DNA from: Hexactinellida sp. DTS-2022
Lineage: Eukaryota > Porifera > Hexactinellida
Assembly: GCA_028753945.1 (NCBI GenBank)
Contig: JAPNXP010000018.1
Coordinates: 3,225,643 to 3,289,642, forward strand
DNA: 64,000 nucleotides
Reading direction: 5' to 3'
The notes below the pieces were generated by a model. It had not been told where the DNA came from. It searched no databases and worked only from the letters and a program-made list of their open reading frames with translations. Made by a program: the position numbers and the translations under genes. Positions 1-54,584 of the stretch are shown here, piece by piece. Positions within the stretch are counted from its first letter, which is position 1, and each line of letters begins with the position of its first letter.

Positions 1-263
1 TACCCCTAGTCCTTTCCTACCCATCCCTATCAGGCGACCCGCGAGAACGGATTGGAACACACTATCATTACGTTTACCGTGACCTTCGTTATATAAGGCC
101 TTACTAATGAGTAGATTTATCTGGACCATGGATTACTTAAAGACCATTGATTATTAGCTAACATACCTTTATCTCAATAGCTAGTTTTGACAGACCTGAG
201 AAATGCATTATAATTATATAGGAAGTTAGGAACATGATATCAAGGCATACATAACACCCTTTA

Positions 264-660
264 GCATATTTTCCAACCTATAGCAAGTCTTTGGCAGGAC
301 GGAGGAATGAATTTTGGCGGGACATAAGGAAGCTTGGCGGGACAAAGAACATTAGTACATAAATAAGTGAAGTAGTATTACTATTTGTACGGATGTCCTA
401 GTAATTGTAATAATATTATTATCTCAACGGAAGGAACCTTGCTCCAATTGCATAAAACGAGACGTCCCGTCAATAAAACGGGACTCTAGTCAATTCTACA
501 GATTTATTACATAATTGGAAGAAGAAATGCTCAGATCTTTATATTTTATTGTTATTGTCACAAAAATGAAATACAGGGTACAAAAATCGGGACAAACGTG
601 TCTAAAAGCGGGACAATTCACAAAATCTTTGCCAAAAAGCGGGACGGTTGGCAAGTATGC
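264..660. mobile_element. 397-bp MITE with TTTA duplication
   Basis: The termini are GCATATTTTCCAACC and the reverse complement of GCATACTTGCCAACC, with GGCGGGAC-type subterminal repeats inside. TTTA flanks both sides (260-263 and 661-664). The two sister copies of R1 (near 48900 and 57835) carry a single TTTA at this point, so they are clean empty sites. The superfamily is not recognised. Confidence 0.8.
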
Positions 661-720
661 TTTAGAATTGTGATATATCACCATTGATTACGTAATCGTT
701 ATTTTTCGTGGCAATTATCG

Positions 721-1852
721 CACAGTGGGCCAAAAGACAGTTTAGCGGAAATAAGCATTTTGTTAGCAGATAGCCACTTGTGAAGTATTATTGACATATA
801 GGTTATTGATAGCAGGAAATTGAATGGCATCATCAAAAATTATGTATGCAGTCTCTAAAGTTGAGTTTTTGGGTAATTTGTTCTAATTTTATGAAAAACT
901 AAATTTTGGTTTGTTAACAATCTTTTATTAGTCACCCATGATATTTGATAAAAAACTTAGACAATGGGGAAAAATAATGAAAGCCTAATTAAATGCCTGG
1001 AAAACAATATATTACATTGGATACAAAGAGGATAGATGGTTACTGAGTGTAATTATCGCAAGTACAACTACTCTTTGGGACCTTAGATCGTTTTTTATAG
1101 CTTTGTTGTATATTGGGAATAATAGCTAGTTTATTAAATCCCTTCTGAATCTTATAAATGTTACTTACCGGAATTTCAAAAGCCTGGATGTGTTCATAGG
1201 TTGATGCGCTGAATGCTAAGTTTGTATTCAAATGATTAGATGCTTCTTCGTTGCTCATTATAGACCATCAGTTATTTGAAAATCAATTATTTTATTTTTA
1301 CTCATTTTTACGAGATTCATTAGAGGCCAATACCAAATTGAATAAATTATATACTTTGCGGCTTTGTAAATTATCTTAAACTAAAGCTAAGATGCTAAAT
1401 TACTATTAGAAAACATAAAATCTCCTACCCAAGAGCACCCAAGACACAATTTCCAACTATATTAGCAAATAAATTTGTGTCCGATCTTGAGTAAAGCGTA
1501 ACATTAGATATCGAATTATACGTGAATAGTATTCATAAGCATTTTAATTATAGCAATGAGATTAAGCTTGAATACTTAGAAAATTAAATACATATTCAGT
1601 TTCAATTACTACACTATGCAGAACGACTTTATAAATAGAATCTTTCCGATTGTAAAACCGCAATATTCAATCTCTAATTCCAATTATATCAAATCATTCA
1701 TTCAGACTCACCGTATTCAAAATATTGAAGTCATAGGACTTGCTAAACTTCGCATTCTAGGTTTTAGACAATGCTTAATTCGATGATAATAATATGCCCT
1801 ATATTCGTGAGTATGAAAAATACCCCTCCTTCCCCCTATTGGCCCACTGATG
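721..1852. mobile_element. Non-autonomous relative of the RAG1-like transposon
   Basis: This 1,132-bp element is inserted in R1. The left end is CACAGTGGGCCAA and the right end, reversed, is CATCAGTGGGCCAA. TATCG flanks both ends (716-720, 1853-1857), a 5-bp duplication as made by Transib/RAG-type transposases. Subterminal blocks match those of the transposon at 6370-9365 at the same distance from the ends: GTATTATTGAC about 64 bp in on the left, and TTTCATACT about 34 bp in on the right. A 72-codon minus-strand frame at 1040-1258 is not recognised and is probably chance. Confidence 0.7.
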
Positions 1853-2205
1853 TATCGTGTTTGTATAGCCAGCTTTTAACATAGTTAAACGCGTTATAAA
1901 TGTTCAAAATTGGAACATCAGGATGTCCATGACTAGTTGAATGAAATATATCGAAATAATAAATGGAATGTTGACACATTACTCGGTTGCCAGGGAAATG
2001 TATATTTCCTAAAATGAGCCATGACTCAAAAACTATCGATTTTATGTAACTATGCTAGTACTGATCTATCCGCAATTGGTAACTTCCTATTCATTGATAA
2101 TACATTTTCTAGGCCTAAGTTCAAAGATTATTGAAGTTAGGCCTAGAAAATGTATTATCAATGAATAGGAAGTTACCAATTGCGGATAGATCAGTACTTT
2201 ACTCC

Positions 2206-2848
2206 CATCCTACCAACTTCCCGCTTTTTTTGAAATTGTTTATATATTCAGATTTTATGATATCTAAGTAAAATAACTGCATTTTTTGCTAAATTAGTCA
2301 AGATAAAGTGCCAAGTTTTGTTCTATTCATATACTCATAAGTTAGTTAAGATTATTTAGCCCCCTTATCAATACACTTACTATTATGCTGTAATTCGAAT
2401 TTGGAAGACATTCTTAAAAATATCCCGGTGGATTTGTGCCTACATCGTCCAGACAGTTGTTATACTAGACACGATGCTGAATTTCTTCTCGTTTAGTTTA
2501 TATGTCGATCTACGCACCACGAGTGGAATAAGCTTTACAACACATTTTACAAATTTGATGGCCTATCGTTATGAAATTCCTAGAAATCTCAAAAAAATGT
2601 CCCTAAATCACGAAAACTTTGAGGATATTTAAATCTGCCACATATGTACATCCACGTACATCTAATTTAAAAACTACTTTGTAGAAAAATACAATTCATT
2701 AATCTAGCTATTTCGTGTTTGTTATATTATCGCATACATTAGGTGAATACTAGATACTCGCGAAGAAATTTGATGGATAGAACTAGAAAAATAAGCGTTT
2801 CCTAATTGTAGATATCCAAACATAAAAAATAATCATATTATATTGTCC
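2206..2848. other. Intergenic, nothing recognised
   Basis: AT-rich sequence with no long open frame, no clear terminal repeats and no match noticed elsewhere in the window. Confidence 0.5.
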
Positions 2849-4717
2849 GGGATACCGACATTTCGTTACACGACATTTCGTTACAGACATTTCGTTACAC
2901 GACATTTCGTTACACGACAGTTTGTTACACGACACTTCGCTACTAATTTGATTCGTCAATTTTAAACACTTGATGCCATTGATTTAAATCAGACTTTTTT
3001 TTTAAAAATCATGATTTTTATCAACCCTGTAAATTAAGTAGGGATCAGTCCAGTGATAGGGACTAGACCACTGCGCGGGACAATAATTAATTAATTAATT
3101 AATCAATTAATGCGGGTCGCGGAACCCACAACCCGCGGGTTCATGCGGGAAAAAGGATCTGAATATTTTGCGGGCGGGAGCGGCACCCGCATAGGACCCG
3201 CGCAGAGGACCCCATAAAATATTACAAATATTATTAGTCATACTAACTTTAGTGTCGCACTCAGGAAGGAGGGCAGTGATACAATGTGCATTTTACAACG
3301 AGAGTTATCATTAATTAAGGCTAAGTGCACCTCTGGAATTGGAAAACCTAACTATCTTCCTTAGTTTGTATTCTATTTACTCTCTTTATTATCTATCATT
3401 TAAAAACGTATGTAAGTTCCTAAACACTAAGTATGTATAAGTGACACATGTCGGACGTGTATACTGTAGACAAGGTGGTATAGCTACCACCTTTACCAAA
3501 TGTTCTCACGCACGTACGCATTACATACTGATGTAATCTGAGTTCACTACCAAATTGAAAGTCCAACTAATACCACTCCTGTAATGTATTTATAGATAGG
3601 GTTCCGGTATTTAAATTGCTAATTTATGTACCTGAGCTGGGATAAATCAACTAAAGATTGATTAAACCTATAACAATATACTTAATCTATGCAAAACGCG
3701 GGTCCCTAAATCGCTAGCGATCTAGGGCACCCCTAGAACACAATAGGTTAGTTATTTCGGCCACTGGGTCCCTAAACGCGCTTACACCGGTTTGTTTCAT
3801 TTTATCTTGATAATTTAGCACATTTAGTACAAAATAGTATATCAGAATGCAAGATCAAATGTTGTCAAAGTATATAATAACTAGGGATGCACCGGATCCA
3901 CTTTTTTGGATCCGGATCTCACCGGATCCTGAATTTTCGGAACGGCCGGAACCGGATCTTACCGGATCCGGATCCGCTTGGAAAGAAAATACAGTTATAT
4001 TAAGTTTGTAGTAATTGATATATGGTAAAGTAAAACTTCGTTAGTATGAAGACATTAAAATTGTCTCAATCTGTCAATCAGAGATATTTAATTAATTTGT
4101 GTCTCCTATACTTCATGAAAATTATATTAAATTTGAATTGGCGTAGAGTATGTCACTATTGAATAGTTTTTGTAAGTAATTAGAGGTTACTTGGATTAAT
4201 AGAATCAATTAAATAGTTGATACACATACAGATTCGGATCCGGTAACCTCATCTCGGATCCGGCCGGATCCCGGATCCTCCACAAATGGGGAAATCCGGC
4301 CGGAACCGGATCCAGGATCCGGTGCACCTCTAATAATAACCAATACCTTGGGGGTCTAACCTGTTCCGTAATTTAGGTACTTAAATTTCCCGGAATGGTA
4401 CCGTTCCGTAATTTAGGTACTTTGATTTTCAGGAATGGTACCTTTCCATACCGTCCCGTCCCAGAAATTAGGTATGTCCTTAAATTTCAACAAAGGTAAA
4501 CATGACCTTATTCAATAACATTCTAGCAGCTAAAATATGATTAAAATCAATGGCATCAAGTGCCATTGATTTTAATCATATTTTTCAAAATTGACGAATC
4601 AAATTAGTAGCGAAGTGTCGTGTAACAAACTGTCGTGTAACAAAATGTCGCAGTAACGAAATGTCTGTAACGAAATGTCGTGTAACGAAATGTCGTGTAA
4701 CGAAATGTCGGTATCCC
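2849..4717. mobile_element. MULE-like non-autonomous element with repeat-built terminal inverted repeats
   Basis: Both ends begin GGGATACCGACATTTCG and run inward for roughly 110 bp as head-to-tail copies of a 15-bp unit CGACATTTCGTTACA, closing with GCTACTAATTTGATTCG. The flanks are ATATTGTCC (2840-2848) and ATATCGTCC (4718-4726), a 9-bp target duplication with one change, as expected for Mutator-like elements. The interior has no transposase. It holds a nested hAT MITE, a GC-rich block of GCGGG repeats (3110-3210), a duplicated AATTTAGGTACTT stretch (4370-4480) and a 19-bp-stem hairpin at 4537-4579. Confidence 0.8.
3882..4332. mobile_element. hAT MITE nested in the MULE-like element
   Basis: The ends are TAGGGATGCACCGGATCC and the reverse complement of TAGAGGTGCACCGGATCC. 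The 8-bp duplication ATAATAAC is at 3874-3881 and 4333-4340. GGATCCGG-type repeats fill both subterminal regions. Nesting shows it is younger than its host element. Confidence 0.88.
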
Positions 4718-5014
4718 ATATCGTCCTAATCATGATAAATTTTTAAATATAGCGTATATTTTAAGTCTCCCGCTTTTTTGGTAAACTCCCGCCAAAAATG
4801 GCAAAACCTCTTGCTTTTTGGTTTCCAGAGGTTGGCATCCCTGGTATAAATAGGATATACACGTGATGACAGGCGCCAGTAGTGCATTTAGGGCGGTGCG
4901 AGGGAGCACCTGTTGTGCAAATAATCCTGAAATTTTGAGATCTCACAAAAATTGATGTCAGACTAAATGTTCCCAGTGTCTGGAATGGTTAGATTGCTCA
5001 AAGTTTACATTTAG

Positions 5015-5943
5015 TCTGGTCGTTGGAAGGTTGAACCTAGAAAAAATTCATACAAAGCGTATTTTAGTATCACTAGAAGCGGAATTTTTCGTGGAATAAC
5101 ATATCCAAAATCCGCTAAAATCCGCTTTGGGGAAAATTTTTTACTCGGGTGGCAGTGTCGGCCATTTCATAGTAAATCGCCGACATTTCCATAACTAACT
5201 TTCTCAAATCAAATCTAATCAACTTATGATCATCATATTTGTACTCAGCGTTAAATTTCCAGCAAAATGATATATCACATGACAATATTTGGAGGATTTT
5301 TTCCATAGCAACGCTGGAATGTATCAAAAATATGTCAGGAATGTGCGAACATTCCATTCTCAAATTGTATGCCTATCCAATCTAGTGACCCCTCGTTCAA
5401 CTCCACTTGTATAATTATACACATATCAACCCTCTAAAATGGGATTTGTCGAGATTATTCGAGATAAACCCAAAATTGAAGATTTTCTGATAAATCTCGA
5501 CAAATCCCATTTTAGGGGGTCAATATGTGAATAATTATACGAGTGGAGTTGAACGAGGGGTCACTAGATTGGATAGGCATACAATTTGAGAATGGAATGT
5601 TCGCACATCCCTGACATATTTTTGATACATTCCAGCGTTGCTATGGAAAAAATCCTCCAATATTGTCATGTGATATATCATTTTGCTAGAAATTTAACGC
5701 TGAGTACAAATATGATGATCATAAGTTGATTAGATTTGATTTGAGAAAGTTAGTTATGGAAATGTCGGCGATTTACTATGAAATGGCCGACACTGCCACC
5801 CGTGTAAAAAATTTTCCCCAAAGCGGATCTTAGCGGATTTTGGATATGTTATTCTACGAAAAATTCCGCTTCTAGTGATACTAAAATACGCTTTGTATGA
5901 ATTTTTTCTAGGTATGACCCATTTTTGGATTTCAACGACCAGA
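5015..5943. mobile_element. Foldback element, about 0.93 kb hairpin
   Basis: The arms run 5015 to about 5440 and about 5500 to 5943, nearly identical in inverse. The outer ends are TCTGGTCGTTG and CAACGACCAGA. The flanks are TTAG and TTAA, so a 4-bp target is possible. Each arm carries the core shared with other foldbacks (TTCCATAGCAACGCTGGAAT, then ACATTCCATTCTCAAATTG). The matching frames at 5115-5363 are a by-product of the hairpin, not genes. The short stretch 4718-5014 before it has only a small hairpin (ACATTTAGTCTG type) and GGCGGGA-like fragments. Confidence 0.8.
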
Positions 5944-6082
5944 TTAATTCATTGTTATCTTAATGTACTAGCTATCATTTAAAACAAAATTGCGAGTCTC
6001 TAGCCATTATAGCTTTTTTGAAGAAAAACCTAGTGATTGAAATCCGCAGACTAGTAAACCCGTGAGAACGGCCAACCTAGAC

Positions 6083-6216
6083 GGTACAACTATAGTATTA
6101 TACCCGGAATATTATGTGCATATTGAAAGACTCGTCTTTTTTAGTGTGTATTATGGTTCATTAAGAAAGAATCGTCTTTAGAAAGTGTCTATCCGGTACA
6201 ATACTATAGTTGTACC
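6083..6216. mobile_element. Short MITE with 8-bp duplication
   Basis: The terminal repeats are GGTACAACTATAGTATT and its inverse. The flanks ACCTAGAC (6075-6082) and ACCTAGAA (6217-6224) match at seven of eight bases. A hAT origin is likely from the duplication length only. Confidence 0.7.
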
Positions 6217-6369
6217 ACCTAGAAGCATAGACTGGTAAGGATTAAGTTAGATTCTAAATTTCCTCATTCCGGACTTTACCCAGGAAGAGAAAATTCATAA
6301 GAAAAGAATGAGGTATTACAGGGACGGGGTCTTATATGAATTTCTTAGCTACTACTGATTTGATGTTTG

Positions 6370-6381
6370 CACAGTGGCACG
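6370..6381 (+). repeat. Left terminal inverted repeat of the RAG1-like transposon
   Basis: CACAGTGGCACG, opening with the heptamer CACAGTG. It lies about 200 bp past the transposase stop. Confidence 0.75.
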
Positions 6382-6587
6382 AAACTGCAATTTGGTGGTA
6401 TTGAGTATTTATGTAAACTTTAAGGCTATAAAATGTATTATTGACCGATAGGTTATCGAACCAAAAAAATCGATTGACATATTCAGATAATTTATATAAC
6501 TCATGGTTCACAAGTTATGACGTCATGGGAGTTATGCTACAATTTCCAAAAAGTGTTAAATACAACATATCCAATAGATGAGATTTT

Positions 6588-8743
6588 TTAATCAAGTTCT
6601 GGTAACAGAAGTGAATTAACAAGCAGTTCTTGATCACTAATATCTTCTTCTAACACGCAATTATCTGGTACTGGTTTCTTCAGCTTTCTATTGAGTAAGA
6701 GGACTGGATCGCTTTGACATAACATTCGAGTAAAAACATCCTTAATATTATCTTCAAAACTGAACTTACGTGATAAGCGTTCTCTATATCTACGGATTAA
6801 CTTATTACTCGCCTCAAGTCCTTCTTCAGATAGTTGTTCCAACCCTAGTCCATTATTGAAAGCTGGGATTATATTAGGTGCATGTGCCAACACTTTGTGT
6901 AACGTAGGCGTAATATTTCCCAAGGAAAAGAATTCAAATCAAGATATATAGTTTCTGGCAAACTACCGTTAGTTCTTCTGTGTCTATTCGTATTCCACAA
7001 TTATACACTCTCAAGATAGCTCCGAGGTAGGTATGAATGTCAAGTATAGCATCTTTGGATTATGTCGGTATTGTTGACAGCACCCAGTATAAGAAATCCT
7101 TTTCGCTGTTATTTTTTCGCACTAAACATCGCCTAGCTACATTTCCAGTGGTTGAAGTTCCGCCTTGTGAAGAAGCAAAATCAATCATGATAATTAACTT
7201 TTCTTTTAGTAATCCACAGAGAAAATTCTTCGCACCATGGATTTTCGGTGAACTAGGTGACCATTTGCTAACTCCGGCACTCAGATGACCTAACAAGTGC
7301 ATTAACCAACTAAAACATCGAAGATATGCGTGTAGGGGTGAACTGGGAATTATATCTATGTCAGATAATGGGACATGTGTGAGATTAAAACGTTGGTCAG
7401 TAGTTAGCGAGAGGAATTGTTCTTCGTCTACTTCTTGGAATAAAACTTTAGCATCACTTATAAACCTATTAATTTGAAAACCATCTCTAACGATATCTAC
7501 ATCATGAATCTGTTTGAATGTGGCAGTACAAAACTGGCAGGACGCACTTCCAGCACCGCTAAGAATTCCGGCCATTTACCATCCAACTGTGAACGTAAGA
7601 TCACTACGCTAGCATGATGACAGTTAATTAAATCAAGTCCATTTGCTTCAATATCAGCAGTTTCTTTGTTGATAATAGTTTTCATAAGAAAACTGACATT
7701 TTCTTTATTTTCTGGAAGAGCGAGTATCGATTTTAGCCTAATTGAGAAAGGAGAATTAGGTAAGTATTTTTCCAAAGAGTATTATTCTGATTGTCTGGAA
7801 TAGTAATCACTTTAAAACCAAATAGAAGAAAAATTTTAGTTGAGACATCAGGGTGAGATGTTACTTGTTCGTATACACGATGTGATCCTGACCCATCTAG
7901 TCCATCTGAGACACGAATTTTGAGTGGTTGTCCTGAACATCGATGGAGATATTCAGTAAAATTCTGTTAATTATTTGAGTGAGTATTTTTTTGTAGGAAA
8001 TTCCGATACCAATTGGATAGTCTCTCTCCACTAAATGGATATCGTCGGCTAGAATGATTTGACTAAGGTGAAGAGCTACACGATTATATCCAGGGAGGGT
8101 AATTGATTCTTCCAATAATACACGCCTCAAATCAATGTATTTTAACTTTCCTATTTCGAGAGAGTCCAATAAGAAAGCTGGAAGCGTCCAGAGATAGTTT
8201 GTTTTTGAGTTGTCCGAACTTTCCTGTATTGATAATCTCTTTAATCACATTAGCTGTGCTGTTATCGTGTTCCTCCAATGAATACAATTTGACTAGGTAC
8301 ATAGCTATCATTTTAGGAGTACAATCTTCATGTTGAGCAACAGCTTCAACATGAGACCTAAGTTCAGCTAGTCGGTTACGAATAGCCCTATTCTGTAACT
8401 GGCTAATGTGCTTTTGAGGTACTCGGCTGATATTCTCTTCTAATTCGATTGTAGACTGAGATGCTTGCAATTTTTCTATTGTGAAATCTTCATAGGAACA
8501 TTGAGGGAGCTCACTATGTGATGGATTTATAGGTGTACAAAAGTACAACTGGTTCCATGTTGTTAGGTCATTCCTTTTCAAATAGCTTAATCTCTCTTTC
8601 TTCATCTCCGAGAATTTTCGTCGGTAATAGTCAAATTTACCTTCGTCTATATGATATTTACCAAGAAAAAGACGAGAAATATCACTAAAACTTTTCTCAG
8701 GATTAGAGGTGCAGAAATGAAACGCTTCTTCGTTATTCATCAC
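6588..8743 (-). pseudogene. RAG1-like DDE transposase, broken by frameshifts
   Basis: Five overlapping or adjacent minus-strand pieces read N to C from 8743 to 6588. The RAG1-core landmarks appear in order. The first acidic residue is in SDGLDGSGSH (Asp codon 7904-7906; RAG1 D600 context). The second is in QLDGKW (7581-7583; D708). A zinc pair follows in SCQFC (about 7529-7543), then GNVARR, matching GNFARK in RAG1. An H-x4-H pair sits in HKVLAHAP (about 6880-6900), and the catalytic Glu in EEGLEASNK (6813-6815; E962 of mouse). After it, NKLIRRYRERLSRK resembles the RAG1 tail. The first about 200 residues have no clear RAG1 counterpart. Frame changes near 8150, 7890-7780, 7540 and 6920 make it inactive as read. 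A Transib or insect-type RAG1 relative is the main alternative name; homology to the family is firm. Confidence 0.9.
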
Positions 8744-9353
8744 GATTGTAAGTAAAAGTGCTAGACAACCATAATATAATATTCGCTAAATTATTAGAAA
8801 AAATTATTAAAATTTCACAACAGTCAATTGGAAAACATGGGAAATGACCATTTGGGAAAACTTGGGAATAGCTAGAAATTATTTTAATTTATCTATAATA
8901 TGATTTCCTTCCATATAATATCAAACTTTCAACTCGCAACAATTAGCAATAATAGTAGTTACACTTTAAACGCGGCGAAATAATAGAAATTGAATTTTTA
9001 GAACCTTACAAATTTCAAACTAGAAAATATTTATGATAATACTGAATATATTCTGTTTATATTTATTGAATCTTAAATAGCACTAAAAATTATATCTACT
9101 TATAGCTAATAACATACCATTTACCCCAAATACTGATAATAAAGTTATTGAATTCCTAACCTGATTTTGTGAAACTATGATTTTCTATTAATAACTTTAG
9201 TGGTTACTTGAGTATTGTATACGAAATTTAGAAAACTATGAATGTCTACGGTGATAGTTATGATCCATTTCTAGGTTCTCAAGTACGAAGAATAAAATTA
9301 AACTAACTATAGAGCAATTGAAAAGTATGAAATTTCATGCTGAGGCAAGCTAC

Positions 9354-9365
9354 CGTGCCACTGTG
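9354..9365 (-). repeat. Right terminal inverted repeat of the RAG1-like transposon
   Basis: CGTGCCACTGTG, a perfect inverse of the left end over 12 bases. It lies about 610 bp upstream of the first transposase codon, leaving room for a promoter or a lost 5' exon. Confidence 0.75.
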
Positions 9366-10570
9366 CTAGGGTCGCCGCCAATTCGCTTATCTGATATAGG
9401 AGTACTCAATGATAATGCGGAAATGCTATATGCCTGGACAGGGAGTCCATAATTAGCTGTTTTGCAGAGATGCCTCACCGAATATTATAATAGGACAGAT
9501 TATTTAACTAAGTTTGTCATTAAAAATATCGATTTCGTTTCAATGTCAATTTTTGGAATGTTTACAACTATTGGGTTTGCCCCTCCAGTGCATTGGTCTG
9601 CCCCCTTTCGCCCCCCCCATGGAGGCTGTACTGGCGCCGCACCTGCCCAACAACAATGGCAAAGTCCCACTCATTGATATTCATATTCATTATTGTTCTA
9701 ATATTTAGAGACGGAGACGGGGGGATAGAGAATTATTTAATATAATAACCATGGCCTGATCCAGGCGGATCGTATGAGAAAATGTTGAATTAGCATCGGT
9801 TTTTGCGAAATGTATTTGTATTTGTAATTAAATACATTCCAAAGTATTTGTATTTGTATTTAAATACATTGTCATTCAGGAGTATTTGTATTTGTATTTG
9901 TATTTAAGAATTTCACAGGTAATTGTATTTGTAATTAAATACTTTTCAAAGTATTTGACCCCATGTCTGACTACCTACATTCCAAAAAAATTTATTTTAT
10001 CTTGCATATTTCTCTTAAAGTTCTGCATTTTATATGTGTCACTTCAGGTATTTTGTGTCGAGAATTTCACTTAACAATATTAAAACCTTCATTTCCCAAA
10101 ACATTATTTTTCATCGGCGAAAAATCCAAAACTCTGGCATCAGTAGTCGTATAATCGAAAACTCAACGGTTTTGGAACCAGCTCGAAGAGATCTCAAGGA
10201 TTAGTGTGGAAAATAAAGTGTTCTAATGGAAAAAAACTTAAATTAACTTCAATAATAGAATTATTCACAAGTGATTTTTCAATATCACATATCTATGATT
10301 AAAAAATAGATTTTTTCTATCATGTCTTTCTTGGATCTTTCTACTTTCATACTGAACGTTCATTTTGAATGGTTTTTACATGTGTTGATAGAAAAAAAAC
10401 TTAAATTTGGATTTTTCCCTGGTATTGACGGAAATTCATTTTTTTTGCAGGAATACGTTGTTATTGCATAATTCAATAGATCTTGAGCGTCCATATCGAC
10501 CCTGAAATTTTTAACAAAAACTAAACGACACTTTTTTCGTATTCAGGCCGGTATACACAGGCCTTAATTA
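9366..10570. other. Intergenic; simple AT-rich repeats
   Basis: Holds a GC-rich patch at about 9580-9660 and a degenerate GTATTTGTATTT tract at 9810-9955, with inverted TTTAAATAC segments that recall MITE ends (a similar AGTACTTAAATAC stretch is at 25760-25815). No credible gene. Confidence 0.5.
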
Positions 10571-11043
10571 TTTATATGTAAAGACTTCAAATGATTAAAT
10601 TAATTATAGATTAATTATTACTAATTACAATATGGAGAAGATGGCTGATTTACAAAAAAAACTGTTATAAAACGTAGAATTGATTAGCGACCTAATAATT
10701 TTAATTGTTATATAGAAAGAACATCCTTAGGAGAATACAACCTCTATATTTTCAATCGATAATACGAATTATTAGAGTCAATGGACAAGAATACAAATTT
10801 CAATATAGCTGAAGAACAAAGCGAAATTGAGAAATCGGGCTTCGAGGTGATCATCTCCAGGAAATTCTATATCTCCTGTCTAAATTTATATCTCTATCAC
10901 CAATGGTCTAGCCAGGCCATCGCGTACGCCCGGCCGGACGGAAGTCCGACAGAGGTAATTTCAATACTGTGCACTTATAGTATAAAACTATAGTAGGACC
11001 CTACTATAACGTTTTACTAGAAGAAGCACACTAAAAATTATCG
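10571..11043. repeat. Dispersed repeat R2, copy a
   Basis: Collinear with 24898-25740, running from GAAGACTTCAAATG-like sequence through ATATGGAGAAGATGGCTGAT to AGAAGAAGCACACTAAAAAT. It includes a GC-rich spot near CCGGCCGG (10930-10942). A 70-codon frame (10781-10993) is not conserved as a frame in the other copy, so it is not called as a gene. The class is unknown. Confidence 0.75.
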
Positions 11044-11894
11044 GATTTGGAAAATTACAACTACTTGTATTTATAATTGAAATGTACACACAGTTTCGCC
11101 CACGTTCAAAGAATGGATAATAAAACAAATAATGTTTACTTAAGATAAGATTAATAAATTTCGAAGGTTCTCCCGAAAAAAGAGCATTAGCTTAAACATG
11201 ATTCTGTTGTTTCCACTTTAGATGATTGTATTGATTCTCCCATGGTTGTAAACATCAATTTACTGTGCCGACTATACTATACTATACTATAGTGTCCCAG
11301 TTCTAATCACACTGTCTTGGTTATAGTCCAGCAATATGGTGCAAGATTGTGCATTTTCGAGATAAAAGTGCCAAATTTTGCACAATTGTAGTATTATAGG
11401 TTCTGATCAACTTCAGCTATGGCACATAGCAGAATTTTTGGAAGTACAAATTTTTCAGGGGGTCCAAAATTGGTGCCCAATCGAAATCGCCGACAGTATA
11501 AATACAGGATAGCTCATTCAAATGAATAATTAACGACTTTATATTGTCAGATTCGTGCTCACACTTAATTTACAGCATTTTGATAGGTATATTGACTATA
11601 TTTGGTGAGAATATTTTTTGGTTTTCCATAGCAACGGTAAGAATGTGATATCATTCCGATCTCCCAATTTGAAGTAACCATATCGAGTGACCCCTTGTTT
11701 TTCTCGGGTATGCGTACTGAGAGCGAATATACTATTAGAAACACTCTAAATATTAATTGTCGATCCAAAAGTATGTATATATCATATTCCTGCTCAAAGC
11801 CAAGATTTATCCAAGATCAAAAGTAGTAGTTGCTTGGACCGGCCATAGTTCCATAGTGCAATGCACATGCTCCCCCATTTGTACGTCCTTGTGT

Positions 11895-12313
11895 CAGGCC
11901 AGTAGCTAGGGGGAGGCTCCCCGGCTAGGTTAACTTATGTCATATATCTGAAACATTTGGATTTGTTGTTGAATTGTATATTATTGGAGTTTCAATTTCC
12001 TCATGCTCACATTTTGTATTAATACTGTACCTCGAATAATCTAGTATCGCACTTGTTCGTATGTATTGAAATTTCGGTGAATAGTACTAGTAGCATTGTA
12101 TCTGGCTTCCAAGGGCTTCGCCCTGGATACAACTGGGGAGCTAACTGCTCTCCCAGACCCCATGCTGGCGATGCGATGTTTTAGAAACCACAACTCCCCT
12201 TATAGCAAATCCTAAATCCACCCCTATCCAGCGTCTTCATATTAAATTATTATACTCAGCTCCCCTGCAATCCTCATTGTCTCACCCACTACTACTTTCT
12301 GGCTACTGGCCTG
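11895..12313. mobile_element. hAT MITE (CAGGCCAGTAGC ends)
   Basis: The ends are CAGGCCAGTAGCTAG and its inverse. The 8-bp duplication CCTTGTGT is at 11887-11894 and 12314-12321. Confidence 0.88.
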
Positions 12314-12686
12314 CCTTGTGTAATAGTGATTTGTTAACCTGCCCCAACCTCCTAGTCAGTTAATGGCACCACCCCAAAGAGAGGGGACTCCGATCCTGAT
12401 TCTAGGTAAATGATAGGCTCTTTCAGTCCCAACCAACATTTTCATTACTATTTCCACTCATTTTACTCACAATATCGTCAAAATATTGGATGTTGTAACA
12501 TATGCATATTTTTTTCTTGAATCAAATGGACCTTTAGTTTTTATTAAGTATCTATAGGTATGAGACGCATTTACTCCAGTCCAAACAATAATTCGAACTA
12601 CATTGACCCATTTACACTAATTAGACAATAAAACTTGCATTAAAAAGCGCACCAAGGGGAGGCTAGCTAGGACCATGGCACCCTTT

Positions 12687-12812
12687 CAGGGCTGTAGATG
12701 GGGCTAACACCGCATGTGGAGTGATATAAATAGTACGAGTATATAGTTTACATGTTGTTTATAAAAATCTGGGAGGTCTTAAGACCCCTAGCTCCCCAGA
12801 TCTACACCCTTG
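12687..12812. mobile_element. hAT-like MITE (CAGGGCTGTAGAT ends)
   Basis: The ends are CAGGGCTGTAGATGGGG and the inverse of CAAGGGTGTAGATCTGGGG. The flanks CACCCTTT and CCCCTTGA only partly match, so the duplication is eroded. Confidence 0.6.
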
Positions 12813-13150
12813 CCCCTTGAGATACTCTGGCACTACCTCTGACCCAACTTGGCTTCCCTCCATTTAATTACTATTAAGCTAATGATGTCTAAGCATTCTA
12901 TTAGTACAGTAGTGAAAACTCTTTTCACTACTGTACTTATAATATATTGAAATGATAAAATTCGACCTAACTCTGGATTCAATTCTAGTTTTTATACAGA
13001 ACTTCCTCCAATTCAAGCGATGACCCTTTGTCTATGAATCGCCCAAAGTCCGCAAGTCTCTCATCTCTCATAGTCGTTCTGAGGTTGGTTGTTCAGCTAT
13101 GATTCAAAATGGAATTTGTAAATACGAAAATCGGATTCAGTATACATGAT

Positions 13151-13295
13151 CAGTGGCGGCGCCAAGGGTGGTCAGCTGACCATCCTATCAAAGTGTTGAC
13201 CACCCTCCTGACTATACTATATTTGGTGTTTGACCCAAAAATATCCATGCTGAGTGTTGTGCCATGCCTAGTGGTGGAGCACACGCCGCCCACTG
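13151..13295. mobile_element. hAT MITE (CAGTGGCGGCG ends)
   Basis: The ends are CAGTGGCGGCGCCAAG and the inverse of CAGTGGGCGGCGTG. The 8-bp duplication TACATGAT is at 13143-13150 and 13296-13303. Confidence 0.9.
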
Positions 13296-13854
13296 TACAT
13301 GATTACTTCTTATAACATTGGAAGTGAGTCTCTATCTTAATTATAAATCCGTTCTATATCGACCTATCACTCTAATATAATCGGGAAAAACAAACAAACA
13401 AGCAAACAAAAAAAAGCACAACAATCGAATTTTAATAATATAAATTTATCGTCCCATGCAGCCAGAAAGAGCGAGATATCTCACTAATACATTTGTTCGA
13501 TAAAAAGAGAGAAGCGGCTGCGTCAGTTTTAACACTAATATCTGATGCCGTTACAACAGCATAAATACTAGTTATAATTGTGACTAATTATAACAGTCTA
13601 ATAACTAAAATGGTAACTATTTAAAACCACATATAAATATTTGCAGGGTGACGCAACCCCACATATGGAAGTAAGTTGGCAGATCCCTCCAAATAGCAGG
13701 CTTATGGCAAGCTCACGAACAAAACGGCCCTACCGACAGTGCCCTTGGAACTGTCTCAGTCCGCCCTAGTTGCATAAATACAATTACTGAAATGGTTCAC
13801 TTATTTTTGGACAAAATATTGAGGGATCAAGGTATTAAAATGGCGAATCAAATA

Positions 13855-14004
13855 CACAGTGTTCTCTCTAATAGTCCACCAGTGGGAAATTTGCCCAAAG
13901 TGGACTATTAGAGAATATGGACTATTACAAATAAATAAATAGTTGATTTGGAGAATTATATAAGTGGACAATTAGAAAAGTGGACAATTAGAGAAAACAG
14001 ACTG
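13855..14004. mobile_element. Mariner/pogo-like MITE
   Basis: The inverted ends share TTCTCTAATAGTCCAC (or ATTGTCCAC) next to CAGTGTT/CAGTCTGTT, and TA lies at both borders. Related sequence lies near 58975-59012. Confidence 0.6.
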
Positions 14005-14846
14005 TAGCAGGATATGAAAATGCATACTTTTGGATAGACAATTAATATTTAGAGTGTTTCTAATAGTATATTCGCACTCAGTACGCATACCCGAGAAAAA
14101 CAAGGGGTCACTCGATATGGTTACTCCAAATTGGGTGATCGGAATGTTATCACATTCTTACCGTTGCTATGGAAAACCAAGAAATATTCTCACCAAATAT
14201 AGTCAATATACCTATCAAAATGCTGTAAATTAAGTGTGAGCACGAATCTGACAATATAAAGTCGTTAAGAATTCATTTGAATGAGCTATCCTGTATTTAT
14301 ACTGTCGGCGATTTCGATTGGACACCAATTTTTGACCCCCTGAAAAAATTTGTTCTTCCAAAAATTCTGCTATGTGCCACTGCTGAAGTTGATCAGAACC
14401 TATAATACAACAATTGTGCAAAATTTGGCACTTTTATCTCGAAAATGCACAATTCGACCATTTCCTGCACCATATTGCTGGACTATTAGTTATTATTATT
14501 ATTTATCAGTATCCTCTCCACAGAAGAGTTTGATTAACTAAAAGCCAAATTTTCAGTACAGGTGTCTCATGAGTTACAGATGTGCATCTGTGGTCACGAT
14601 TTTAATTACATTTTTCGACACATTTTACAAATATTTAATTAATGTCACAACCGGAACAACAAATAGTGCCCTAATATATAATTTATTTGCATTTTGGCTT
14701 GTTCATTCACCATGTATCTGAAATGTAGTTCGGAAAATAGATACATTCGATCAGTTTCGATCAAAGTACAATACTAAATTTAGTTCACTGCTTGGTGTTA
14801 ATTAACTTGACTTGATTGTAATTATATAGATCTGAGATACACGAGG

Positions 14847-15140
14847 GTGATGAAATTCTGTATACTACCCAAATTAAAGAAAATGCCTAATACTAAGCAA
14901 CAGGAGAAATATATCGGTCCATTTACTGCCTCGCGGCTAACAGATAGCCATGCCTTCATTCCAAACACCAAAGGTTTGAAAAAGGACAAGAAAATTCCGA
15001 TCGATCTAGTTCGACCTTACCATCAACGCGAGAATACCTTGAGTCGAACTACAACATCACGTAAAGAAAGTCGGAATTTTCTAAGGATCAGCCAGCAAGC
15101 AAGAAGTCACAAATGGTATTTAGATTTAATGTCGGAATGA
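14847..15140 (+). pseudogene. Gypsy-type integrase C-terminal fragment
   Basis: The 97-codon frame contains KYIGPFTASRL...IPIDLVRPYH, the SH3-like tail that follows the catalytic core of Ty3/gypsy integrases. The reverse transcriptase, RNase H and DDE core are absent upstream. It stands just before the OTU gene, and gypsy-derived integrase plus OTU combinations are known in animals. Whether the two were one gene is not settled: a GT donor at about 15115 exists, but no consistent splice path was found. Confidence 0.55.
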
Positions 15141-15623
15141 AATGTGATGACTACTAGTTGACCTATATTACAAAAATATTTCATCTCCTTTTAGGACAAA
15201 CAGCAACTGTTTGGGTTCTCGAGGCAAGTAATACTTTCAAAACTTGATGAATTCAAGGTATTTAAAACACTTGTCGTTTCGTAATCTTTACTGTAAACAA
15301 TTGTTCAATCGACTTCAAAGCATACTCACAATTCGGTGTTTTACACTATTTGCGACACCAATGAATAATTAAGTAATTGTCTTTTATCTCCCTTAAAGGT
15401 AATTCTACGAAGAAATGTATAGGAAAACACCTTTATGACACCACTCCATGAAGAATTGCACAATAAGCTCCAAAAATATCAGAGCACGTGCCAAACACTC
15501 ATATTGAGTTTTCTTCAAGATATACTGAAGAGACAATGGTAATAATTATATTTGAGAATTATGTTTACTAGCAGGTAGTTACTACTAGATCATGCCTCAT
15601 AATTAAATCAACTTTATTCCTAG

Positions 15624-17084
15624 AAAACAGAGATCAGGGAACTCTTACTGAGTTGGACAACTGATCTCTACCCTGCGTTCGGGGACATTCTTGCAGCTAA
15701 ATTTACCTTTAAAGTATTGTATGCAGTGGTAAGTATAGTACAGTTATTATTTGATATACAATCAAATTACAAATATTTTACATTGTAACTACCTTTTGAT
15801 ACGTATCAATCTGATAATATACAATTTCGATAATTATACTAGCTATTATTTAAAAGTTATTAATTAAATACAAGTGATTAAAATTACTTCTAAAATTCTA
15901 AGCAGCATGAGGTTACATACAAGCACGATATTTTAGGCAATCCAATCAGAGCTGCAAATGGGTCAGTGACCCATGGGTCATATGGGTCACGTTTTTGGGA
16001 TGGGTCAATGGGTCATGGGTCACACGCCATGGGTCATGACCCATCAATACTTTGATTAACTTTGATTAATTAATTATATAGAAGTAAGAGAGATCATTAG
16101 ACTTGTAATAAGAGATCATCAGAGAGCGTGAGGCATTTTAATACGTTTAATGCTCTACATATAGTAACGTCTCAACGTAATTCAATGTTACCAGAGACCA
16201 TCGAAGCCGTATCTGTAGTGCTAGAAGGTTATAAAAACAACTTGATATCATGATTGTGTGAGACTAAATTATATTTACATTATAGTTACTTCTAAGTTCA
16301 AATATTGGATATATAATTGGTCAGATAATAACATGAATGGGTCACTCCTTCGATGGGTCACATGGGTCATGGGTCACTGCTCGTGACCCATTTGCAGCAC
16401 TGAATCCAATATCTCAACACGATACTTTGGGGCATCTTTCCAGAAGGCTGGCCGAATAGTGCTCCGGAGTTAGTCTCAGAAACCACTAGTATCGCTGTTA
16501 TTGATGAAAAGTGGCAGAGAGAGAAATGTACTCTTTTGGGGCTGACTTTTCACTCAGCCATCAAGCAGCCGGAAAGCCTGAAAGGAAAGCCTCTGTGTCA
16601 ATACGAGCCATCGGAGACAGAGAGTATTGTTGGAGGTGGAAACTGTCTCTTTCGGTGCTTATCGAAGATAATCACTGGAAGTCAAGAGAGCTATTTACAA
16701 CTTCGTGATATAATATCTATATTTATACCAAGTGAGGATACAACTCAATTCCAGTGGTATTTTCGCCAGAAACAGATGTATCCATCCAACTACTTACTAG
16801 ATGAAAACCTGGTTAGTATAGAAGGAACCTGGGCAGGAGATGTAGAAATCATGGCGGCTGCTTGTATCCTCCAGGCAGATATATTTGTTGCGAACAACGA
16901 TTACATACCTGAAGGCTCATTAATTCGTGAGGTACGGTGGAGCATGCTCAGAGCTAATGATAAATCTAACACATCCATCTACATTACCAACTATTTGAAC
17001 CATTACGAATCTGTAATTTCAATGCTTAGTTCCTCAACTCTTATCTATGGTACGACATCTACTAACTTCATTAAGATCGAATAA
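15624..17084 (+). pseudogene. OTU-domain gene, spliced, interrupted by a hAT MITE
   Basis: The exon at 15624-15729 opens after TTCCTAG and closes at a consensus donor GTG|GTAAGTAT. The next exon begins at 15937 after TATTTTAG in the same phase and stays open to the stop at 17082-17084, except that a MITE (15947-16402) lies ten bases into it. The second exon encodes WGIFPEGWP and then an OTU cysteine-protease domain: GGGNCLFRCLSKIITG (nucleophile Cys), WAGDVEIMAAA, IYITNYLNHYESV (His). The usual Asp of the DGNC box is Gly here, so proteolysis may be lost. OTU proteases remove ubiquitin. An open stretch at 15423-15539 may be an earlier exon, but its phase does not join. It could be transposon-derived or a host gene. 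Confidence 0.6.
15947..16402. mobile_element. hAT MITE with ATGGGTCA repeats, copy 1
   Basis: The ends are CAGAGCTGCAAATGGGTCA and the inverse of CAGTGCTGCAAATGGGTCA. The 8-bp duplication AATCCAAT is at 15939-15946 and 16403-16410. The subterminal regions are strings of ATGGGTCA. The interior matches 60956-61444 in inverse. It sits inside an OTU-gene exon. Confidence 0.92.
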
Positions 17085-19203: not shown

Positions 19204-19308
19204 TAGTACCAAATTTCATAGTAAGTAACATACAACAATATCCAACTACAACTGAATCTCGAGATTAACTATAGAATCTCAAGATTCTATGGCGAATCTC
19301 AGAATTCT

Positions 19309-22030
19309 ATGCTACTATTTCGTCGATGGTTTTTTAGTACAGGAATCTCAGAAATCTACGCAACAGAACTACCAAACGGCTGGATAACTAATGTGTCTAA
19401 TAGCACCCCTTTATTTTTTATAAAAATCGTTATTTTAGAAACCGGACCATTCATCGACCGATCTGTATTAGTTAATGATGATTTGTACATCAAAGCATTT
19501 GATAATAAAAACGGCACCATCCCGATCTCGCGAATTTTTATTAATGACACTCGCCAAGTTGAGACCATCCACGATGAAGTAGATACATTTTCACTCTTAC
19601 TTCAAACTATTAACCCCAAACTGAATGTTCTATTAACAACCATATAAAACTTGCTATCCATGAACTCGAAAGTGCAATTAAGCTTGTTGATGGATCTCGA
19701 TAGACCTAGATATAGATGATTTACATTGCAGTAGCGAATCTCTGAGTATTTCATTCCACTTTTTAGTTGGGCAACTGAGAAATTTGATAAATGCTAAAAG
19801 TCGTCGACGGTATAATATTTTAACTCAAGTATTTTCACTAAAAATTCATGGAATATCACCTGCATGTTACCGACTTATTCAATCATCCAATTGCTTAATC
19901 TTGCCTCACGAGAGAAATTTGATTGGTATAAAAAACACTCTGGGTATTGAAGGTGATTACTTTCAAATTCTAAAGGAAATAACTTCCAAATTTAGCCATA
20001 GGGAACGCCATGTGATACTTCAAATGGACGAAGTTCACATCCGTAGTGATGCTTCATATAAAGGAGGTAAAGTTTTGGGCGCCATCGACAACCCTAGCGA
20101 CCCACCCACAACTGTGTTTTCAATGATGATTTCTAGTCTTATGAAAAAGTTTGCCACCATTGTTCGTCTGATTCCGATAGGGTCTTCCTCCGCGGCTGAT
20201 TTATATCCAATTATTACAAAAAGAAATGGTGATATAGAGAGTTGTGATTTATTTGTTGAGGCAATATGTACCGATAATTATCCTTTAAATGACAGTGTAT
20301 TTAAATTATTTTCATATGACGAAAATATTGCAACCGCGAGTTGTACATCCATGTAACAAAACGCGAAACCTTATTTTATTCTTTTACATAGCCCACATTA
20401 TGAAATCAATTCGCAATAACTGGTTAAATTTATAAGAAAACTTGTATTTTTCTGATTTTGAGACTTGGACCGATGATATTCCACTACCAGTAATTATACC
20501 ATCTACCAGCTTAAAGTTTATATACCTGTTGCTAATACTATTTTGGATTCGAGGGTATTGACTAAGTCAAAATACCCTCCAATATGCTTTGCAACATTTG
20601 ACGGCTTCAGAACCTTATTTAAAGCTGACAAATTTTCCATAATTAAGAGAGCCCCCAAATTAACATCAAAAGCATGTTGGCCAGGCTTTCATCCAGGAAA
20701 AAATTACCCCGCTCCTAGATTTTGTTAGAGCTCGTTCAGTTTTTATTTTGTACGCCTAGATTAGTCATCTTGTATTCAGTCTATGGGAGCATCTCTCGAT
20801 ATTGTAGGCCTAGAATCGATTTTTGTACGCCTAGAAAATATCCTGCCAAATTGCGCTCCTTTAGGCGCGCCCAGCACGCCTGGATAACACCCTGATGTTG
20901 GCCATCTCATTTAGAGCGACAAAATGTAAACGTAGCTATTAAGATCTTTCATGAATCTAGAGCTGCGGGGCTCTGTAGTTTATATAATAAGAATACAACA
21001 AATGAAAATCGCCATATAGTCAAATTAATACATTTGATAAATAAAATCTGAACATTTTCAATGTTAATTGGGTCGGAAATATATTCGCTTCAACAATCCA
21101 AATTTTGCTCCGCTTCGCTTGAACGATCCGAGATTATCCTTTTTGGACCATGTAGTTAAATGGCTGAATTGTTGGAAATTACTTCCCACGTCTAGAGGGA
21201 AGCTTACACCACAAACATTCACTATTTTTAGACATACTTGTATTGCCCTCCCTCTCTTAGTACAGAGATTGACCCTTGAATGCGGTTTTGAATATTTGCT
21301 GACGTCTCGAATACAAAATGACCCATTAGAACATCATTTCGGGCTATATCGTCAAATGACTGGTTCGAACAATAATATATCTTACTGTCATATTTTGGAG
21401 AGTGAACGTCGACTTCAATTATCTAATCTCCTAAAAGTTTTTAACATAAATCAACTGTCTGATAAAACATCTCTTAAAGAATATTTGAAAAAATTTACAC
21501 AGGAGGACGATGAAGAAATCCATCCAGAGTTTGATTTTGAGTATGTTACAAGTGAAATACTTAACATTGCTAACCCTCTATTTGATAATTTGCAAATTGA
21601 ATGCCTAAATACGTGGCTGGGTATGCAATCTTTTTCGTACCTTAAAAATTCTAAAGAATGTCGAGAGTGCGAGGATTTTTTAACATCTCCCAAAGATATT
21701 CAAATTTTTAACGACACAGGATTTTCAATCATTGAATTCCTTGATAGAGGCTCACTTAAGTATCCATCTGAAATTATCTACCAAACTCTCATCGTAATGT
21801 ATGAAATATTTTTGAAAATCGATAACCATTCACATTTAAGTAAACTATGTTACGAGGGATCCTGCCGTCGAATTTGGTTCGTTTCTCACTTATTATTGTA
21901 GAAGAAAAGTATAGTGTAATATGGAGGCAATGGTGTGTTTGTATCATTCCAAAATGGGAAGTTGTAAAAAAGTTTATACCACTGCACTGTAGCTAATTGT
22001 ATTTATCGAAGAAGGTTAGAAACTTTAATT
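19309..22030 (+). pseudogene. P-element (THAP9-like) transposase 1, broken
   Basis: Pieces in order: 19309-19647 (LPNGWITN...SVLVNDDL); 19784-20356 with the RNase H-like core segment QMDEVHIRSDASYKGGKVLG and the block CDLFVEAICTDNYPLN; a shifted continuation at 20356-20460 reading IMKSIRNNWLNL, a hallmark of this family; 20543-20680; and 21068-21901 with LLTSRIQNDPLEHHFGLYRQ and a CREC zinc-type tail. A last shifted piece runs to about 22030. Frameshifts near 19645, 19760, 20345, 20460 and 21895, a hAT MITE at 20682-20894 and the absence of a THAP domain upstream show it is dead. Terminal repeats were not found. Confidence 0.85.
20682..20894. mobile_element. hAT MITE inside P-element 1
   Basis: The ends are CAGGCTTTCATCCAGG and the inverse of CAGGGTGTTATCCAGG. 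The 8-bp duplication ATGTTGGC is at 20674-20681 and 20895-20902. It splits the transposase frame. Confidence 0.88.
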
Positions 22031-27651: not shown

Positions 27652-29656
27652 ATGCCTAACTCATGTTCTGTCCCCGGATGCAAGAGCAACTACAACCCGG
27701 ATGACCATGTTGCTGTTTTCAAGATGTCTCAAAGTACACCAACCCTGAATAATGCCTGGCCATGCGCTCTTCGTCGCGAGGATATCGGTGACCTGAAGGT
27801 GGTCTATGTATGTATCAACCATTTTCAGAAAGAAAACATAGACTACACTTTCAAAGTTCCAATATGAGATGATACTTTTACTGAATTACCGCGGGCGAAG
27901 CCAAAGCTGAAGACGCTGTACCAAGTTTGCTGCCCCCAGCATATTACTCATCCTAACCTAACAAACGGAATTGCTTGTCATACGATGCAAAAGAGGAAGC
28001 CTTGATGAACCAAACACTACAACTGCGCTTGAGATCCGAGAGTCAAGAGAAAGAGAAGTTTGTGGTCAACTCTCTACAGGACTTGAAAGATAAGTTAACC
28101 TTGATTTCTTTACCTAATAGTTGGTTGGTGTGGTTCCGTAGTGAGAGTAACATAACGTTTGTTCTCGGGCTGAAAAAAATATCTCCGTATATTTGTACCT
28201 TGAAATCAATGCTTATTTATCCACCTCATCCTATTTTAATAAACAGAGTATATCCGTTCCCATTGCTGCGATTAGTGACATCCGAGAAATTGAATCTGTT
28301 TTGCAGGAACTTGCTTTAAAAAACAACTCTAGTTCTTATTGTGATTATCCTCTTAAGTTCGGTTGTGCATCCTTTGAAGATGTATGTCAATTATACAATT
28401 CAGAAAGAACAAGTTTAGCCTAGTTAGCTCCTCATTTGACTATGGAGTCATGTTTTCCGTCTAACCATGACCTACTTAATATACGGTTATATATGTCGCC
28501 GAGAAGGCCATAAAACCAAGGGGCCAGTTTCTAATTTTCATTCTAGGATAAACTATGCCTTCTATTGTTGTTATTTGTGTTGTATATGGGTAATCAACCA
28601 TTTCGAGTCCATTAGAATCACTTTTGAGAATCTCAGATTTGTGGTTAAGCTATTTAGGCGCCATTTAATGATGACGGTAACAATTTTGCAAATGAAATTT
28701 TTGTTAAATATCATAAATTTCGGTTATTCCGACTTTTTAATAATTTTATAATAGGAATACTAAAATAGGGATATATTTCATACCCCAAAGGCTACTAAAT
28801 CACAAAATGGCGACATTCTAAAAAATTAAAAATTATTAAGCAACCACATGCTAAATTACAAGTGGTATCCGAATTAAAACTTACTATTTTCGTCCATAAA
28901 ACGTATATAATTGCTGGTTTATATATATTCATTCTCATTATATATTCGTAAAATGTATTCTAAGTATATTAGCAAATTATTTTCATTTTCTCGCAGTTCT
29001 TTAGACTCGAATTGTATATTTTTGTATATTTGTGGTGTCATCATTAAATGGCGCCTAAACAGCTTAACCACAAATCTGAGATTCTCAAAAGTGGTTCTAA
29101 TGGACTCGCAATGGTTGATTACCCCATATACAACCCAAATAACAACAATAATATCTAGCCGTATATTAAGTTGGCCATGCTCGTATATATTGCAGGCTAT
29201 GCAGTATTCTCTTATCTTAAAAAATCTAATGGTTGTCCATATTGTCAAGATTTCTTAACGATAGACAAATCACTTGAAGTAAACAATGATGTAGGTTCTC
29301 AATATACGTTGATAGATTTAGTGGATAGATGCTCTCTCAAATATCCGTTTCGTTGTGTAGTAGATGTGTCTGTATCCTGTTATGAAATTTTTATCAAGAT
29401 TGATAACTGTAGTACTTTGAACAAAGAATTTTATTTGGGACAATGTCGAACCAAGTTGGTACAACTTTCTATTAATATGATTACAGATAAATATAGTGAT
29501 ATGTGGAATGATTGGTGTCGGTGTAATGTTTGGAACTGCGATGTCCTAAAGAAGTTATGCGTAACATGGTCAAACTGCATCCTATCGAAGCAAGTCCAGA
29601 ATTATAATACTGTAGTTCTGAAGAGAGATAATACGAAACTGAAAAAATACAATTAA
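27652..29656 (+). pseudogene. P-element (THAP9-like) transposase 2, internally deleted
   Basis: A 71-codon THAP finger opens the gene: CSVPGC, Trp36, and CINH at residues 54-57, spacing as in C2CH. The region shifts frame after 27867 and continues at 27975-28423 (SLQDLKDKL...LPNSWLVWF, matching the LPNGWITN block of transposase 1). The C-terminal piece is 29171-29656 (AGYAVFSYLKKSNGC, CPYC, DLVDRCSLKYP, WNDWC). The catalytic middle (about 1.5 kb in transposase 1) is missing, and an inverted-repeat insertion at 28563-29150 sits at the junction. Drosophila KP elements are also internally deleted and encode THAP repressors; such a role here is only a possibility. Confidence 0.82.
28563..29150. 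mobile_element. Inverted-repeat element at the P-element 2 deletion junction
   Basis: About 115-bp arms, 28563-28678 and 29034-29150, mirror each other (TTGTTGTTATTTG...GGCGCCATTTAATGATGA). The spacer is AT-rich and non-coding. A target duplication is not clear. The alternative is a rearranged part of the P element itself. Confidence 0.65.
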
Positions 29657-36239: not shown

Positions 36240-36607
36240 AATAAGTCTTGAGAATGAGCAATAATAAATAAAAATCTAGAGCTATATTAAATTAATGATG
36301 AAATTACAGCTGTGTAGACAGCAGGTACTCTGGCAGGCACTATAATTTGTTGAGTAGTTGCGTGATAGTGCCTCCAAAAGAAAATGCTATATGCACATCT
36401 GTAATTTCAGAATTTTTCCTCAAAAAGAATTTTTCGTTAAACCATTCTATCGGATACCGACAATTCGCTACACGACAATTCGTACAGCGACAATTCGTTA
36501 TACGACAATTCGCTACTGATTTGATTGGTTGATTTCCACTTTGTATCCACCTATATAAATATATTTTAAAGTTTGCTTATTAACTATTTTAATCTCTTTT
36601 AATTAAC
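36240..36607. repeat. Solo MULE-like terminal repeat near 36454-36535
   Basis: GGATACCGACAATTCGCTACA with four CGACAATTCG units and GCTACTGATTTGATTGG, clearly the same design as the ends of the element at 2849-4717. No inverse partner is nearby, so it is a remnant. The rest of the interval is the 5' flank of the CatSper gene, with no distinct promoter element. Confidence 0.7.
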
Positions 36608-54566: not shown

Positions 54567-54584
54567 TTCTAAATAAAAGAACTA

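Follow-up and report, generated by a model that had tools for sequence, protein, structure and literature searches.

Transib transposases are held to be relatives of RAG1, the enzyme that cuts vertebrate antibody genes. At positions 6370-9365 of the window (the whole stretch of DNA analysed, 64 kb), the remains of a transposase related to both lie between short inverted repeats, and the initial annotation had read them as a transposon of the RAG1 family. The question raised by this locus is whether it stands with RAG1 or with Transib, and whether the inverted repeats are its ends. With a probability of about 0.88, 6370-9365 is a fossil autonomous DNA transposon of the Transib superfamily, ~3.0 kb in length and with a single transposase gene.

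A decayed transposase gene on the minus strand

The coding part of the locus consists of six overlapping pieces in different reading frames:

8132-8785, minus strand: piece A, N-terminal part, with a Met at 8740 and no Pfam match above cut-off
7897-8244, minus strand: piece B, upstream of the catalytic Asp found in piece C
7733-7966, minus strand: piece C, with the context of the first catalytic Asp, SDGLDG (7880-7909; D600 context)
7497-7781, minus strand: piece D, with the context of the second catalytic Asp, QLDGK (7566-7592; D708 context)
7060-7575, minus strand: piece E, with the zinc ligands CQFC (7528-7539), a zinc-binding insert of RAG1 length and GNVARR (7129-7146)
6588-6938, minus strand: piece F, with HKVLAH (H-x4-H; 6882-6899), SEEGLEASNK (6783-6833; E962 context), the C-terminal tail and a match to PF12940

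Taken in order, pieces A-F form one read-through protein of ~720 residues. The catalytic contexts of RAG1 (D600, D708 and E962 in RAG1 numbering), together with C-x2-C, H-x4-H and GN-x-ARR, had been claimed in this order for the minus strand, and all of them were located in pieces C-F. The three acidic residues, C408, both histidines and GN-x-AR are invariant among this protein, HzTransib (the species being presumably Helicoverpa zea) and mouse RAG1; one of the two zinc cysteines (C408) is thus found in an invariant column of the three-way alignment. Among the six pieces, the last (F) matched the Pfam RAG1 model PF12940 at 27.2 bits, above that model's cut-off of 25 bits, while the Pfam scan of the remaining five returned nothing above a cut-off and an NCBIfam scan of three of the six found no match. 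The predicted structure of piece E alone has a mean pLDDT of 41.3.

Successive pieces meet to within a few bases of each other: TLWKN (7766-7780), for instance, is followed by LPNSP from 7763 downwards, and QLDGKWPE, which ends at 7566, by LSGAGS from 7563; the frame changes therefore look like small indels rather than introns. In total, about 2.15 kb contain five frame changes and an in-frame stop; the stop terminates piece E, and homologous sequence continues beyond it. In its present state the copy could not yield a complete transposase and is a fossil. The same damage argues against domestication of the protein as a host gene, a reading for which nothing speaks beyond the presence of a long homologous region and which is extremely improbable.

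Relationship of the protein to Transib and RAG1

When the read-through protein was searched with phmmer against PDB (177,635 sequences, with 18 distinct ones matched at E <=1), the best match was HzTransib (6pqn; 73.2 bits, E 1.2e-19, in two stretches), followed by RAG1 chains at 26.6-29.9 bits, for each of which the best stretch was the C-terminal 60 residues only, and by the lancelet BbeRAG1L (6b40) at 21.2 bits. Searched alone, the middle 298 residues found HzTransib at E 2.9e-8, with RAG1 absent even among matches of E <=10. With mouse RAG1 as query, BbeRAG1L scored 249 bits and HzTransib was absent from the 16 matches at E <=0.001. A profile built from this protein and HzTransib reached BbeRAG1L at 50.6 bits and RAG1 chains at 34-48 bits, as expected for one superfamily.

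Pairwise comparisons gave the same order. In the three-way alignment the protein is identical to HzTransib at 120 of 421 positions (28.5%) and to mouse RAG1 at 88 of 422 (20.9%), with 75 of 350 shared between HzTransib and mouse RAG1. Local scores of the core were 230 with HzTransib, 116 with BbeRAG1L and 96 with mouse RAG1; those among the other three were 102 (HzTransib-BbeRAG1L), 84 (HzTransib-mouse RAG1) and 596 (BbeRAG1L-mouse RAG1), and each of the six was reached by none of 1,000 shuffles. The maximum-likelihood tree of these four sequences (of which one is the decayed read-through, pieced together by eye, and another contains 13 unknown residues) paired this protein with HzTransib and BbeRAG1L with mouse RAG1 (100/100); the two alternative topologies were 35.2 log units worse, in a topology test that warned of too few replicates. 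Moreover, the spacing ID-x(5)-[GS]-G-T-x(3)-GN-x-ARR is common to this protein and HzTransib and is not that of RAG1 or RAG1L.

The initial annotation thus holds as far as a transposase of the RAG1/Transib superfamily is concerned, and the four-sequence tree did not place the protein outside that clade, the outcome which had been named as speaking against it; the epithet 'RAG1-like' does not hold, given the two identities, the quartet and the lack of room for a RAG2-like gene. Likewise, the catalytic layout is indeed closer to RAG1 than to a generic DDE enzyme, and this is equally true of any Transib.

If the locus were instead a RAG1-like (RAGL) transposon, or a fossil RAG1L, whose RAG2L had gone by internal deletion, this would account for the match of the last piece to PF12940 (31.8 bits for the read-through, above the cut-off), for the resemblance of HKVLAHAP to mouse HKTLAHVP and for a zinc-binding stretch of RAG1 length. 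The length of this stretch and the PF12940 score do pull the protein towards RAG1 and against a placement with Transib. Yet PF12940 is not specific to RAG1, because the last part of HzTransib also matches it, at 20.2 bits (E 0.00018) and so short of the cut-off; the quartet and the pairwise scores favour HzTransib; and mouse RAG1 finds BbeRAG1L at 249 bits, while no RAG1 chain reached 30 bits with this protein. Together with the zinc-domain insert and the neighbouring ORFs described below, these results leave a RAGL origin quite improbable.

The features of a Transib are found together at 6370-9365, namely a D-D-E and zinc-ligand core, the grouping with HzTransib (among four sequences), a single gene and heptamer-like ends that start with CAC. 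Two features of RAGL and RAG1L are missing: the protein falls outside the RAG1/RAG1L clade in the quartet, and no linked RAG2L was found between the ends or among the flanking ORFs of at least 75 aa. The family, Transib, is already known, and this copy is a further member of it. With HzTransib (6pqn and five more PDB entries) it shares a RAG1-like DDE transposase with the order D, D, CxxC, GNxARR, HxxxxH and E; unlike HzTransib, it is dead and bears no target duplication.

Inverted repeats and bounds of the element

The bounds of the element are given by the following features:

6370-6381, plus strand: left terminal inverted repeat CACAGTGGCACG, with the exact consensus heptamer of recombination signal sequences (RSSs) first
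9354-9365, minus strand: right terminal inverted repeat, the same 12 bp, by sequence identity with the left end
6365-6369: left flank GTTTG; the right flank, 9366-9370, reads CTAGG and does not duplicate it

The perfect 12-bp inverted repeats reported initially are exact, and both begin with the heptamer CACAGTG, as had also been stated. At up to one mismatch, the sole two sites of CACAGTGGCACG in the 64 kb are the two ends (0.05 expected), and the match between the ends grows to 13 bp when the neighbouring G/C is counted.

Perfect 12-bp inverted pairs 1-5 kb apart number 2,100 in the whole window, most of which are taken to derive from its repeats, and 48 of them start with CAC. In 1,000 first-order Markov simulations of the 2 kb adjoining the coding part on each side, any 12-bp inverted pair appeared in 541 and a CAC-starting one in none; a 12-bp inverted pair alone is therefore no evidence. 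When arms were sought in the 2 kb to the left and to the right of the coding part, a single CAC-starting pair of 8-12 bp emerged, the CACAGTGGCACG ends, which sit 0.2 and 0.6 kb from that part.

No 5-bp target-site duplication was found at these ends (left flank GTTTG, right flank CTAGG), and thus an insertion as bounded by 6370-9365 is not proven. A second copy of the element was not found within the 64-kb window, and when the 1-kb flanks were compared with the window only their outer parts matched (up to 6222 on the left and from 9811 on the right), revealing no empty site. The missing duplication, the frequency of 12-bp inverted pairs (in the 541 simulations and the 2,100 pairs of the window) and the failure of any second block shared inside the ends to exceed shuffles (see below) would all fit a Transib fossil whose original ends were others, or two recombined insertions, so that the unit never moved as such. 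This alternative denies the bounds only and is compatible with the classification as Transib; against it stands the sole CAC-starting 8-12-bp pair, which begins with the exact heptamer so close to the coding part, and we regard it as rather unlikely. The 12-bp repeats are very likely the true ends of the element.

According to Kapitonov and Koonin (2015, PMC4411706), autonomous Transibs typically exist in one or few copies, and old ones have lost recognizable termini. A lone decayed copy fits this picture.

Heptamer and RSS-like structure of the ends

The consensus heptamer of V(D)J recombination is CACAGTG (PMC8289069), and according to a review (PMC8355894) the heptamers and nonamers at some Transib ends match those of canonical RSSs exactly. 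The exact heptamer at the ends of a Transib is thus a close match with precedent, and the part of the match beyond CAC may be an accident. Compared with ProtoRAG/RAGL (BbeRAG1L, PDB 6b40; PMC7204232 and PMC8289069), the element has in common the superfamily of the catalytic core and the CAC-starting ends. It differs in the heptamer itself (CACAGTG here, CACTATG in ProtoRAG), in having no RAG2L and in a protein that lies outside the RAG1/RAG1L pair of the quartet.

The likeness to vertebrate RAG1 and its V(D)J signal comprises the exact heptamer, a segment resembling the nonamer-binding domain (NBD) and the catalytic layout; it does not extend to protein identity (88/422 with mouse) or to a nonamer. 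The nonamer ACAAAAACC was absent at 12/23-bp spacing, with at most three of nine positions matching at spacers of 11-13 and 22-24 bp. A 12/23 RSS-like structure built on AATTT, which is common to both ends at different distances, was rejected by shuffles: the best shared end blocks of 8, 9, 10 and 12 bp were reached in 184, 276, 298 and 294 of 300 shuffles, respectively. No second shared block inside the ends, within 60 bp, stood above shuffles.

NBD-like segment, zinc-binding stretch and C-terminal tail

Piece A harbours one further feature:

8267-8491, minus strand: segment resembling the RAG1 NBD, inside piece A (residues 84-158)

Its local score with the RAG1 NBD is 70, versus 30.3 ± 5.1 for shuffled sequences (reached by 0 of 2,000), while the RAG1 NBD alone (3gna) was matched by the read-through at E 0.91 among 177,635 sequences. 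Both Transib subgroups have an NBD equivalent (Tao et al. 2022, PMC9435367), and such a segment is therefore expected here.

The zinc-binding stretch is of RAG1 length. From C-x2-C to the LH motif there are 64 residues here and 63 in mouse RAG1, versus 29 in HzTransib; from C-x2-C to HK-x-L-x-H the respective numbers are 208, 206 and 164. The zinc-domain insert itself bears no similarity to those of RAG1L and RAG1, the scores being reached by 1,192 and 2,251 of 3,000 shuffles, respectively, whereas the inserts of RAG1L and RAG1 are similar to each other (0 of 3,000). Sequence homology of the insert with RAG1 or RAG1L is thus unsupported, which also speaks against a RAGL origin. Beyond the SDP motif, the C-terminal tail in piece F contains a single Cys and lacks His, and no Cys/His cluster that could be taken for CTT1 is apparent in it.

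The alpha11-alpha12 region is kept in Subgroup I and bacterial Transibs and lost in Subgroup II (PMC9435367). Likened to Subgroup I by published description only, the element shares with it an NBD-like segment and a zinc stretch long enough for alpha11-alpha12, and differs in that a CTT1 tail is not recognized and the asymmetric bipartite ends of that subgroup are not apparent. The RAG1-length zinc-binding stretch may point to a relationship with the Subgroup I of Tao et al. (2022). A more specific reading, which we put forward tentatively and with considerable doubt, is that the element is a RAG1-proximal Transib, either within Subgroup I or sister to it, from the genome of an early-branching animal or another holozoan, representing a mixed type outside the scheme of two subgroups. 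Such a type would combine an exact V(D)J heptamer, an NBD-like domain, a zinc region of RAG1 length and a tail without a visible Cys/His cluster, and its zinc region would be the surface later used for RAG2 binding.

Space for a RAG2-like gene

The initial annotation had also proposed a search for a linked RAG2-like kelch gene. Inside the ends, 218 bp lie between the left end and piece F and 580 bp between piece A and the right end, and this spare space was judged too little for a kelch/PHD gene. Pfam scans of the nine flanking ORFs of at least 75 aa (four at 1-6369 and five at 9366-16000) and of one plus-strand ORF inside the element returned nothing above cut-off; three of these ten ORFs gave hits that fell well short of it, and no kelch family was among those. 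Beyond the flanks, the scope for kelch was nine long ORFs of the window. The absence of a Pfam match above cut-off in all ten ORFs (four left, five right and one inside) is a further point against a RAGL element.

Other features of the window

The window looks eukaryotic, with several DNA transposons and genes of animal type. To the left of the Transib, 5035-5913 is a long palindrome, with a 94% identical inverted match over 546 bp and its centre at ~5474. At 50089-52041, a MULE/FLYWCH transposase ORF (50292-51749, 485 aa) lies between inverted arms of 15-16-bp tandem repeats (CGGACACTTCGTCGCT) that are 99% identical over 112 bp; this is apparently a young MULE-like element with tandem-repeat ends. 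Similar inverted tandem-repeat arms (CGACATTTCGTTACA; 97% over 106 bp) bound 2853-4710 with no ORF of at least 75 aa between them, perhaps a non-autonomous relative. Transposase pieces, presumably P-element/THAP9-like, were found on the plus strand at 19225-21901 (with a TNP-like RNase H match at 19691-20356) and 29159-29656, the latter resembling, by eye, the end of 21068-21901.

Two long uninterrupted ORFs occur on the minus strand. That at 35097-36275 (392 aa) encodes a channel of the six-transmembrane type, CaV/CatSper1-like, with CaV3 channels (170 bits) as the best PDB matches and CatSper1 scoring 126 bits; that at 52608-54581 (657 aa) encodes a cation:proton antiporter with Na_H_Exchanger and CPA2 matches, which we take to be TMCO3-like. 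The two genes suggest that the host is an animal or closely related to animals, and their uninterrupted frames hint at an intron-poor genome or at retrocopies. The 2-kb block with the strongest G skew and the highest A+T content in the window contains an 83-bp repeat in about ten tandem copies (32185-33034). One satellite pattern of the window found no match in viral contigs.

Searches for relatives elsewhere

In collections of viral, prokaryote-genome, plasmid and phage sequences, which hold few eukaryotic sequences, so that their negatives say little, no relative was confirmed. Among viral contigs, four stretches matched the pattern with the read-through as query and 75 with the protein alignment, none of them confirmed, and the DNA motif found none; among prokaryote genome contigs, the protein alignment gave 51 stretches, again with none confirmed, and tblastn against plasmids and phages found no relative. 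The DNA motif for SEE..E..NK..R..R hit two loci of the prokaryote contigs, both taken as chance. In the first (L001) there was no tblastn match, and the motif lies inside a long ORF, presumably RNase E. The second (L002) has a weak HzTransib match at the motif (38.8% over 49 residues, E 0.023), while this protein matched elsewhere (E 0.51), and there is no long ORF on that strand there. PF12940 was found neither in genome G001 nor in any of 369 genomes of its class, of which little can be made as 14 control genomes also had none. Titles and abstract openings, from whose reach Repbase and most subscription papers fall out, yielded no published description of this element.

Proposed mechanism and implications

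By analogy with the known biochemistry of Transib and RAG, a single DDE/RNase H-like transposase would have bound both CACAGTG-starting ends through its NBD-like N-terminal part and its core, nicked 5′ of the heptamer and made hairpins on the flanking DNA; the excised element would then have been inserted elsewhere by cut-and-paste with a 5-bp stagger. We infer binding, nick-hairpin cleavage and transposition by this transposase from that biochemistry.

As a single decayed copy with no target duplication, the element changes little alone. Transibs with RAG1-type domains matter in that they help to show which parts of RAG1 predate the acquisition of RAG2 in single-gene transposons, the parts in question being nonamer binding and the RAG2-binding part of the zinc domain.
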